Positions 3,946-25,905 of a DNA stretch of 64,000 nucleotides are shown piece by piece. The position numbers were made by a program, and so were the translations under genes. Source of the DNA: Marinobacter nanhaiticus D15-8W (GTDB taxonomy: Bacteria > Pseudomonadota > Gammaproteobacteria > Pseudomonadales > Oleiphilaceae); NCBI RefSeq assembly GCF_036511935.1, contig NZ_AP028878.1, forward strand, positions 2,170,001 to 2,234,000, read 5' to 3'. Below the pieces are notes generated by a model. It was not told the DNA's origin. It was given only the letters and a program-made list of their open reading frames with translations, and ran no database searches. Position 1 is the first letter of the stretch. Each line of letters starts with the position of its first letter.

Positions 3946-4248
3946 CTAACGTTTAACTTCCCTGATGGCCGCGCCAATCAGGTAACCGCCCTCGGCGGGT
4001 TCGCAGCGAAGGACTTCGATAACGGTTTCAAACGGTGGGAACTGTTCGTTGGTCGAAGGTAGGAGGGTATGGAGCTGAGTACCTTCAGCAAACGCTGTTT
4101 CCACGAGAACCTGCATACCGGTACCACTCAAATCCTTGCATAGCCCCTTGTGTTGTCTGCCTTCGGCATCGGTGATGGTGATCTCTGTGTTCACCTGCAT
4201 ACGGTGAAAATCCCGTTTTTCTGAAAAATCACGCATTATCGTTGCCAC
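3946..4248 (-). CDS. single-domain PilZ protein (c-di-GMP binding)
   Basis: A 100-residue protein made almost only of a PilZ domain. Both ligand motifs are present: RDFHR (RxxxR, residues 12-16) and DLSGTG (DxSxxG, 39-44), so it should bind cyclic di-GMP. Single-domain PilZ proteins usually act as adaptors controlling motility or exopolysaccharide; nothing nearby names its partner. Start is GTG at 4248, preceded by AGAGG at seven bases; the in-frame ATG at 4236 (residue 5) has no such site. No diguanylate cyclase or phosphodiesterase gene is in the window. Confidence 0.85.
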   Translation of the reverse strand: MATIMRDFSEKRDFHRMQVNTEITITDAEGRQHKGLCKDLSGTGMQVLVETAFAEGTQLHTLLPSTNEQFPPFETVIEVLRCEPAEGGYLIGAAIREVKR

Positions 4249-22788: not shown

Positions 22789-23442
22789 ATGGCAGACTCT
22801 ATGAAACGCGGAAACTTCATTACGTTTGAAGGCACCGAAGGTGTCGGCAAGTCCACCCAGCTCAAGCATGCCGAGAACTGGCTCCGGTCCCACGACATCG
22901 ACGTTGTCGTCACCCGTGAGCCCGGAGGAACGCCGCTGGCCGAGAACATTCGTGAACTGCTGCTGGCTCCGCGGGACGAACAGGTCGTCGACCTCACTGA
23001 GCTGCTACTGATCTTCGCTGCCCGCGCCCAGCACCTGAACACGTTGATCCTGCCGGAGCTCAATGCAGGGCGGTGGGTGCTGTGTGATCGCTTTACCGAT
23101 GCCACCTATGCATACCAGGGCGGGGGGCGCGGGGTGTCACGCAAGCAGATCGCGATCCTGGAAAACCTGGTCCAGGATGCCCTTCGGCCCGATCACGTCA
23201 TCCTGTTGGACGCACCGGTTGAAGTCGGTATGGCGAGGGCAAGGAAACGCGGTGAACTCGATCGCTTCGAGCGTGAGACCGTGGCCTTTTTCGAGCGCAT
23301 CCGCAGCACCTACCGTGAACGGGCAGTTTGCTGGCCTGAACGTTATCACGTGCTCGACGCGGCGCAATCGATCGAGGCGGTCACGGAAAGTCTGTCCAGA
23401 ACCCTGCAATCCATCCTCGACGTCCACGTTGCCGACTCCTGA
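22789..23442 (+). CDS. tmk: Thymidylate kinase
   Basis: 217 residues. Phosphorylates dTMP to dTDP. The P-loop EGTEGVGKST is near residues 14-23, followed by the DR motif in CDRFTDATYAYQGGGRG and the lid RARKRGELDRFE. ATG 22789 or ATG 22801 could be the start; neither has a clear ribosome binding site. In Pseudomonas it is followed by holB, pilZ and tatD; here those are absent. Confidence 0.96.
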   Translation: MADSMKRGNFITFEGTEGVGKSTQLKHAENWLRSHDIDVVVTREPGGTPLAENIRELLLAPRDEQVVDLTELLLIFAARAQHLNTLILPELNAGRWVLCDRFTDATYAYQGGGRGVSRKQIAILENLVQDALRPDHVILLDAPVEVGMARARKRGELDRFERETVAFFERIRSTYRERAVCWPERYHVLDAAQSIEAVTESLSRTLQSILDVHVADS

Positions 23443-23531
23443 CCTCAGCTGACAGTTCATGCCGAACCTGTCTAACGGGTCATTAGATTGTCTGCTACGC
23501 TTTTCAAGTGATCAAAAAATAACCGCATACG

Positions 23532-23650: not shown

Positions 23651-24979
23651 ATGTCCAAAGCTATCATCGTCTGCTGTGACGGAACGTGGAACCGGCCGGA
23701 GACCGAAGCCGAAAGGGTGGAGCCGTCCAACATCCTCAAGTGTACGCGAGCCTTGAAGGCGCACTCAGGGCGCCGGGACCAGGTCGTCTACTACGACGAG
23801 GGCATCGGGACTGCAGGTGGCCTGGATCGATGGCTCGGCGGTTTTCTCGGGGTGGGGCTCTCAGCCAATCTCCTGCAGGCCTACCGCTTCATCGCCAATA
23901 ACTGGGCGCCCACTGACGATATATACCTGTTGGGATTCAGTCGGGGGGCGTACACGGTGCGCAGCCTGGCCGGATTCATCCACGTTATGGGGCTGATGGC
24001 CAAGTCAGAGATGCGGCACCTGCCCCAGGCCTACCAGTGGTATCGGGCGGAGCCCGGCCCGGACCGCGACAAGCTGCCCCAGGCCCCCTTGGTCGAGGAA
24101 CTTCGGCAGACGAGTCGGCGTATTCCGGTCCGGTTTCTTGGCGTTTTCGATACGGTTGGGGCCCTGGGGATACCGGTGCCGGGACTGCGGCGGCTGTCGC
24201 GCCCCTGGGTGGGGTTTCACGATACGCAGTTGTGCGACTCGGTATCCTACGCGGTCCAGGCCCTTGCCATCGATGAGCGTCGTGCGCCTTTCCAGCCGGA
24301 TCTCTGGACACATGCCCAGGATGCGAGCGAACAGCAGGTTGAGTCTGTGAACCGACGAACCCTACAGGTCTGGTTGCCCGGTGTGCATAGCGACATAGGC
24401 GGCGGCTACCCGAGCACCGGCCTATCCGACCTGGCGCTTCAGTTCATGATCGCCCAGGCCAACCAGCATGGACTGGAATGGCAACTGGGCAATATCTTTT
24501 CCAGTGATCCGGACGATAGAATCCACGCGCCGCTGAACGACAGCTATAGCCTGGCCTACCGCGCTTTCGGCGAGCATCTGCGACCTATTGGCGGCCTACA
24601 GCGGGAGCAAGCGGGGCTGGAGGTGTCCGTCAGCGAGAAGATCCATATCTCTGCAATGAACCGCCTGGAGGGCGGCGGCATGTTCGATAACCGCCGCAAT
24701 CTCGAGACGGCGCTCGAAGATGGGGCGCCGGTCTTCCATGAGCGGCGTCACCTTAGACTGAAAGTGCCGGAGAGCCTTTCAGTGGCGGACATGCCGGATG
24801 TCGGCGAGGTTTGCACGCTCGTGAATATGTCCGAATCCGGCGCGCGCCTGCACTACAGCGGCAACGGCGCTGTGAGTGAAGGCGCTTCCTTGCGGCTTCG
24901 GCATCCACGCATTGGCGATCGGAAGGCTCGAGTCAAGTGGTGTCTGGGTAATGAGGTTGGTGTCGAATTTGCAGCGTAG
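23651..24979 (+). CDS. DUF2235 alpha/beta hydrolase fused to a C-terminal PilZ domain
   Basis: 442 residues from ATG 23651, chosen because GGAGGAAAGG lies just upstream; the frame is open further back without a ribosome binding site. The DUF2235 domain (1-350) begins with IIVCCDGTWN and carries a complete triad: Ser97 in GFSRGAYTVRS, Asp167 in FDTVGALG and His246 in VHSDIGGGY. DUF2235 includes type VI secretion phospholipases of the Tle1 family. The tail (363-442) is a PilZ domain with RRHLR (365-369) and NMSESG (392-397), both c-di-GMP-contact motifs. Inference: a hydrolase whose activity or location responds to c-di-GMP. No signal peptide, vgrG, PAAR or immunity-like gene is adjacent. Substrate unknown. 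Confidence 0.88.
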   Translation: MSKAIIVCCDGTWNRPETEAERVEPSNILKCTRALKAHSGRRDQVVYYDEGIGTAGGLDRWLGGFLGVGLSANLLQAYRFIANNWAPTDDIYLLGFSRGAYTVRSLAGFIHVMGLMAKSEMRHLPQAYQWYRAEPGPDRDKLPQAPLVEELRQTSRRIPVRFLGVFDTVGALGIPVPGLRRLSRPWVGFHDTQLCDSVSYAVQALAIDERRAPFQPDLWTHAQDASEQQVESVNRRTLQVWLPGVHSDIGGGYPSTGLSDLALQFMIAQANQHGLEWQLGNIFSSDPDDRIHAPLNDSYSLAYRAFGEHLRPIGGLQREQAGLEVSVSEKIHISAMNRLEGGGMFDNRRNLETALEDGAPVFHERRHLRLKVPESLSVADMPDVGEVCTLVNMSESGARLHYSGNGAVSEGASLRLRHPRIGDRKARVKWCLGNEVGVEFAA

Positions 24980-25092: not shown

Positions 25093-25905
25093 GTGACGGC
25101 CATATTTCCACCTATGCTCAACGCCCGAGTCCTGAAGCTGCCTGAGAATGCGGCCCAGCATACCCATGAACATCATCAGGTGGTGATCGGTCTGCAGGGA
25201 AACTCGGGGCTCGCGGGGCAGGGTTGGGGCGTCGACCTCGATAACCGCAGGGCCTGCCTGGTGCCCACCGAAACCCGGCACGACTATTTCGGCAACGATA
25301 TCAACCATGTGTTGGTGATCGACCTGGACCGTGCGGCACCCGCCCTGTCCAATCCGCAGCACCATGACTATGATCGTCTGGCTCCTCTGTTCGATCGACC
25401 GCAACACCTGGATATGGATACTCGCTTGCAGAGCCTGATCCATCTGTGTGCATCGGAGTTGAACCAGGCCCCGGAAAATCGTTCCCTGCATGAACATTTT
25501 GCCACCGGCATTGTCCACTGCCTGTCCAATCGCCTGAGCGAGAGATATCGGTTCAGTCGGCGCCGGCCCCAGACTTTTGATGTGGCGGCGATCCGACGTT
25601 ACATCCATGCCCACCTGCACCAAAAGATCACTATCAGGGACCTGGCCAGTGAGGCCTGCCTCAGTGTCAGTCGGTTTCATGAAACCTTTCGTGAGATGAC
25701 TGGCGTCAGCCCTCATCAATATGTCATCCAGGTGCGACTGGAGCAGGCGGTCCGTCTGCTTACGACGACGTCACTGTCAGTATCCGAAATCAGCTACCGA
25801 AGCGGCTTTTCCTCACAGAGCGCCTTTACCAATGCACTCCGAAAACACAAAGGTATGACGCCGGCGAAAATGCGTTTGGAACAGTCAGTTGTGACCGTTG
25901 AGTGA
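25093..25905 (+). CDS. AraC-family transcriptional regulator
   Basis: 270 residues. The N-terminal half (1-165) is a cupin-like sensing domain with a His-rich HTHEHHQVVIG. The C-terminal half (about 170-265) is the double helix-turn-helix, with RDLASEACLSVSRFHETFRE and the second helix SVSEISYRSGFSSQSAFTNA. It lies upstream of putP in the same orientation, like PruR-type activators of proline use, so proline-dependent control of putP is a reasonable guess. GTG 25093 has AGGCG upstream; ATG 25114 is an alternative start. Confidence 0.85.
   Translation: MTAIFPPMLNARVLKLPENAAQHTHEHHQVVIGLQGNSGLAGQGWGVDLDNRRACLVPTETRHDYFGNDINHVLVIDLDRAAPALSNPQHHDYDRLAPLFDRPQHLDMDTRLQSLIHLCASELNQAPENRSLHEHFATGIVHCLSNRLSERYRFSRRRPQTFDVAAIRRYIHAHLHQKITIRDLASEACLSVSRFHETFREMTGVSPHQYVIQVRLEQAVRLLTTTSLSVSEISYRSGFSSQSAFTNALRKHKGMTPAKMRLEQSVVTVE

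Follow-up and report, generated by a model that had tools for sequence, protein, structure and literature searches.

The product of a single gene in Marinobacter nanhaiticus D15-8W combines a Tle1-like (DUF2235) catalytic domain with a C-terminal PilZ domain. The gene lies at 23651..24979 (+; 442 aa plus stop) of the window, the 64,000-nucleotide stretch NZ_AP028878.1 2,170,001-2,234,000, at 2.19 Mb of the genome. We propose that this fusion protein is a cytoplasmic Tle1-like serine hydrolase that breaks acyl esters in lipids of the producing cell and is under c-di-GMP control through the PilZ domain, a reading to which we assign a probability of about 0.55. The data show the gene, the folds of its domains in a model, the conservation of triad and motifs, and the gene context; that the protein stays in the cytoplasm, binds c-di-GMP, is catalytically active and acts on lipids is inferred, as is the direction in which it would be controlled. 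Taken together, sequence, model and conservation make a hydrolase that c-di-GMP gates or targets the natural reading.

One reading frame for hydrolase and PilZ domain

The initial annotation had described one frame joining DUF2235 and a full Ser97-Asp167-His246 triad to a PilZ domain with both ligand motifs. Pfam and the alignments confirm this description, with PF09994 and PF07238 both above cut-off in the one 442-aa protein. The fusion is also conserved among the homologues collected: the C-terminal domain is found in 68 of 118 aligned relatives, a share that is no population estimate, since these are drawn from the best 120 of 6395 relatives by full-length score, a ranking in which fused forms are over-represented. 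The 118-row alignment (query included) holds rows of at least 340 aa, with P0008 and P0113 left out. A second alignment of 71 rows is restricted to those of at least 410 aa, three of which (P0056, P0102 and P0117) have no PilZ part. For the structural model and the genome searches, the underlying alignment contained 42 of the 120, hand-picked for having the C-terminal part.

The longest frame in the ORF list starts at 23459. Considering that all six genomes of the genus carry the full-length fusion, aligning across residues 1-442, and that three of them have an ORF of exactly 442 aa, the start codon is likely to be at 23651. In the protein thus read, residues 3-10 already form the first strand, so a signal peptide is unlikely.

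The Tle1-like catalytic domain

The catalytic domain (PF09994, T6SS_Tle1-like_cat, formerly DUF2235) occupies residues 3-269 (23657..24457, +) and matches the full profile 1-287 with 273.4 bits against a cut-off of 27. The predicted nucleophile Ser97 (codon 23939..23941, +) lies in a GFSRGA motif aligned with that of Tle1/TleB and is present in 71/71 rows. Asp167 (24149..24151, +) aligns with the FDTV motif of TleB and is aspartate in 70 rows and glutamate in one, while His246 (24386..24388, +), aligned with the GVHSD motif of TleB, is invariant in all 71. The three residues correspond to Ser240-Asp280-His347 of TleB, a solved member of the family, and the triad is kept in 117 of the 118 rows of the larger alignment. 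A search of NCBIfam with the fusion protein gave a single lipase match, below threshold, and a search of viral_contigs found one relative with 39% identity across residues 3-270.

It is noted that many relatives have the catalytic domain in unfused form (50/118 aligned rows). Since they do, and since the match falls short of a full-length fusion in 43 of the 62 matching genomes of the family sample described below, the catalytic domain can apparently work without PilZ, which counts against control by c-di-GMP.

The PilZ domain and its ligand motifs

The PilZ domain (PF07238) covers residues 365-440 (24743..24970, +). With 25.1 bits it is only narrowly above the cut-off of 22.5, and the approximately 80 C-terminal residues do score as PilZ, as had been predicted. 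The RxxxR motif, R365-R369 (RRHLR; 24743..24757, +), sits right at the junction of the linker and the PilZ barrel, and both arginines are present in 68/68 fused rows. The [DN]xSxxG motif at residues 392-397 (NMSESG; 24824..24841, +) is found in strict form in 51 and in relaxed form in 65 of these 68 rows. In the remaining 17 the strict form is absent, the serine being replaced in part of the family, and position 392 of the D15-8W protein is N rather than D. It is a rule of PilZ proteins that the residue preceding RxxxR sets monomeric versus dimeric c-di-GMP binding. This residue is E364 in the fusion; the column holds R in 29 and E in 25 of 71 relatives.

These features bear on whether the domain still binds its ligand. 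A PilZ that has lost c-di-GMP binding, and whose role is now purely structural or in protein binding, could account for the narrow Pfam score, the imperfect second motif and the asparagine at 392. However, the RxxxR arginines are invariant, the motif as printed in one passage of the literature, [D/N]xSxxG, admits N (PMC11800159), and the PilZ part is strongly conserved inside the genus, so we consider this explanation improbable.

In structure comparison the PilZ fold of the modelled fusion protein matches PilZ-c-di-GMP complexes. The PilZ domain was modelled within the full protein, and the VIA-align list barely tests the model outside residues 1-276, although PilZ rows appear in it. A sequence search of PDB chains returned no PilZ chain at E up to 1 or 0.1, only Tle1-type and unrelated chains. 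The modelled fold also matches MapZ bound to CheR1 (5xly), a PilZ protein that acts through partner binding. This match would suit targeting rather than allostery, with PilZ recruiting a constitutively active hydrolase to a partner or membrane site at high c-di-GMP, and a variable linker resembling a tether would suit it as well. Against this are the absence of a conserved partner gene adjoining the fusion across genera and the position of RxxxR directly at the domain junction, as a hinge would have it. Recruitment of this kind appears unlikely to us, though it is the least improbable of the rivals to direct control by c-di-GMP.

Conservation, distribution and history

Mean identity over the 15 pairs of six congeners is 72.1% for residues 1-340, 50.3% for the linker at residues 341-360 (24671..24730, +) and 85.5% for residues 361-442. 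Identities were used as the measure of selection in place of dN/dS, as dS is either saturated or undefined, with usable values for 14, 12 and 6 of the 15 pairs. Within the genus the PilZ part is thus better conserved than the catalytic part, which is most simply explained if the sensor part has a function of its own. The fast-evolving linker gives no hint of a rigid, finely tuned coupling between the two domains.

In a sample of the family, which like the other distribution samples includes the genome of D15-8W itself, 62 of the 121 genomes have a match (E up to 1e-40). The match is full-length in 19 of them; in the other 43 it stops before or inside the PilZ part, or crosses stops. For the wider samples at most four candidates were scored per genome, so that the counts are lower bounds: at least 9 of 390 genomes of the order (E up to 1e-130, all full-length), at least 35 of 369 of the class (E up to 1e-60, two of these full-length) and at least 2 of 398 of the phylum (E up to 1e-130). 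The fused rows come from, among others, Marinobacter, Hahella, Allohahella, Rheinheimera, Spartinivicinus and a Gemmatimonadales MAG, and loci matched by their C-terminus also occur in Zooshikella, Thiohalomonas, strain HdN1 and a Desulfuromonadaceae MAG. A quick tree built from the catalytic part requires two changes of the fused/unfused label, of which the starred branches force one; a single origin of the fusion is possible.

Gene surroundings

The fusion gene is preceded by tmk (thymidylate kinase; 22789..23442, +; PF02223, 158.8 bits) and followed by a gene for an AraC-type regulator (25093..25905, +; PF12833, 83.2 bits). The order in the window is fab genes and mltG (both by eye), tmk, the fusion, the AraC regulator and transporters (by eye). 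In the four congeners fetched at length (L125, L126, L127 and L144), the fusion has ORFs of the fab cluster upstream and of the AraC cluster c12 downstream in every case, with the mltG cluster called in three and tmk in one. It should be mentioned that ORFs were called with a simple longest-first script that misses genes, tmk being called in the window and in only one of the four congeners. With this calling, no cluster of neighbouring ORFs is common across genera in 33 stretches. The comparison included 20 hand-picked stretches and 12 of the 80 loci matched by their C-terminus; L132 and L044 are the same contig, as judged from length and gene order.

A regular neighbour does appear in six Hahella-type genomes, where, among ORFs of at least 90 aa, the one closest to the fusion on one side encodes a GGDEF protein. 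It lies on the same strand, 90-95 bases downstream, in four (L129, L182, L183 and L184) and is divergent from the fusion in two (L128 and L181). Pfam confirms the domain in L128 and L129, and the other four rest on a GGEEF motif. Considering that one of these genomes (G033) has 67 GGDEF matches, a chance GGDEF neighbour is estimated at about 1-2% per gene, and adjacency in a single lineage among about a dozen is a weak sign. It is consistent with control by c-di-GMP and does not decide the question. In a motif scan, GGDEF was present in 4 of the 22 fused stretches (the L132/L044 contig counted once). The 10 unfused stretches had no true GGDEF, an SGGQL in a 71-aa ORF being discounted. The EAL motif pattern was absent from both the 22 fused and the 10 unfused stretches.

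Genes related to lipids also lie near some copies: an acyl-CoA synthetase gene in L134, and WS/DGAT and acyl-CoA dehydrogenase genes in L049. Further copies lie near genes for an AidB-type protein (L040) and a patatin (L132), and an acyl-CoA synthetase gene stands beside the unfused copy of L142. Chosen by eye and without a background rate, these neighbours are a pointer to the substrate only. As a separate observation, a tandem array of three ORFs (703-731 aa) that resemble one another and look like receptors by eye occupies L131:713-7321 (+), directly upstream of the only fused copy found in genus g13.

The genome of D15-8W is rich in c-di-GMP signalling, with 68 GGDEF and 13 PilZ matches. 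The window itself contains another PilZ-domain stretch at 3955-4221 (-; 108-aa frame, 45.3 bits), and one PilZ match of the genome (L009) is a 92-aa frame with a TGA inside.

The position after tmk is the one in which holB-pilZ is found in other gammaproteobacteria. The fusion does occupy it, as the initial annotation had remarked, but this says little on function. In D15-8W, holB (195.3 bits) and a gene for a 116-aa PilZ protein (60.4 bits) stand together at L177:7546-9072 (-), at about 2.916 Mb, approximately 0.72 Mb from tmk and next to ORFs that do not look like tmk. The PilZ protein adjoining holB has neither ligand motif by eye, whereas the fused PilZ has RxxxR and NxSxxG. With the pair standing elsewhere and its PilZ lacking the motifs, a holB-pilZ origin is unsupported, and the fused PilZ need not derive from that gene.

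Type VI secretion and phage defence

The catalytic family is that of Tle1/TleB and parts of a type VI system are present in the genome, so that the fusion could be an effector that kills competitors, with PilZ regulating its loading or activity. Models for VipB/TssC, VgrG and PAAR run over the genome gave one VipB match at 5.16 Mb, three VgrG matches (0.32, 4.90 and 5.14 Mb) and PAAR, also at 5.14 Mb, and no match within 1.8 Mb of the fusion, in agreement with the earlier remark that no VgrG/PAAR gene is nearby. The nearest VgrG is approximately 1.9 Mb away, and PAAR and TssC are approximately 2.9 Mb away. No immunity-like gene is kept beside the fusion across genera in the 33 stretches with simple ORF calling, PADLOC gives no match, and a cytoplasmic signal domain would be of no use in the periplasm of a target cell. 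The effector reading, very improbable in our judgement, was rejected because the VipB/TssC, VgrG and PAAR matches lie at a distance.

A second Tle1-like protein of the same genome (L178:6978-9607, -; 0.64 Mb; 677 aa; PF09994, 86.6 bits) is more effector-like than the fusion, though it is also far from the VgrG genes found. Its gene shares 4 bases with a 199-aa ORF that looks like a lipoprotein, with which it possibly forms an effector-immunity pair, and a kinase-domain ORF lies upstream. The initial annotation had held a housekeeping lipid role and an antibacterial one equally likely. Because no VipB/TssC, VgrG or PAAR match falls within 1.8 Mb, no neighbour is shared across genera and a more effector-like protein of the family exists, the balance shifts in the direction of the housekeeping role, and the antibacterial role loses ground.

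A CBASS-like anti-phage effector, in which c-di-GMP or a related nucleotide would trigger membrane damage, would follow the logic of the phospholipase CapV, which is activated by cGAMP according to a passage of PMC7288161. A PADLOC scan at E up to 0.1 matched no family, and the defence reading was rejected. The gene is moreover present in six of six genomes of the genus, beside fab genes in four of four congeners, unlike a mobile defence island. We regard such a role as the least probable of all.

Proposed mechanism

In the reading that we prefer, c-di-GMP would bind R365 and R369 at the linker-barrel junction jointly with N392xSxxG397. The junction would then rearrange, and PilZ would shift on the variable linker relative to the hydrolase. 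The hydrolase may be switched on at high c-di-GMP; this direction is a guess by analogy with BcsA, whose PilZ domain is described in a section of PMC7288161 as relieving autoinhibition upon c-di-GMP. Speaking against c-di-GMP control are the second motif, not strict in 17/68, the narrow Pfam PilZ score and the lack of a neighbour common across genera.

The larger picture, which we put forward tentatively and at somewhat less than even odds, is an old fusion retained across several genera, in which c-di-GMP would directly switch a self-directed lipid hydrolase that remodels membrane or storage lipids. It is known that c-di-GMP controls polysaccharide synthesis, motility and more. If the proposal is true, the switch between motile and sessile life would be tied to lipid turnover within one protein. 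The Tle1 fold, treated as an injected toxin in the relevant section of PMC12421835, would then also be regulated inside the producing cell.

Comparison with known systems

Both domains are known. As far as our searches go, a path leading from the second messenger to the hydrolysis of lipids would be new in the case of c-di-GMP: no description of a PilZ-enzyme fusion through which c-di-GMP directly controls lipid hydrolysis was found in the open literature searched, nor one of a DUF2235-PilZ fusion in a search that covered mostly titles and abstracts and excluded subscription papers and preprints.

The fusion shares its catalytic domain and triad order with the type VI phospholipase effectors Tle1/TleB (PF09994), of which TleB is stated in a passage of PMC12421835 to cut at sn-1 and sn-2. 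These effectors have different C-terminal parts and, according to the same passage, adjoin VgrG and immunity genes, whereas the fusion has PilZ and none of these nearby. Members of the same bacterial family also have short DUF2235 proteins of about 346 aa that are not fused. These share the catalytic domain (282.6 bits in L137), but are without the PilZ part and stand in other genomic places. The c-di-GMP-binding proteins PA0012, Alg44, YcgR and BcsA have the PilZ fold and the RxxxR and [DN]xSxxG motifs in common with the fusion; unlike in the fusion, none of the c-di-GMP-binding PilZ proteins among the structure matches listed is joined to a Tle1-like hydrolase. CapV-type CBASS phospholipases, in the part of PMC7288161 that treats them, are lipid hydrolases switched by a cyclic dinucleotide, which for the fusion is a proposal. 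They have a patatin fold, respond to cGAMP and serve in defence, whereas the fusion has a Tle1-like fold, a PilZ domain and no defence match. The N-acyl amino acid synthase-PilZ fusions Nas343 and Nas354, as outlined in a portion of PMC4897644, are a precedent for an enzyme followed by a C-terminal PilZ domain, as here. These proteins are acyltransferases with a putative role for PilZ, whereas the D15-8W fusion is a predicted hydrolase.
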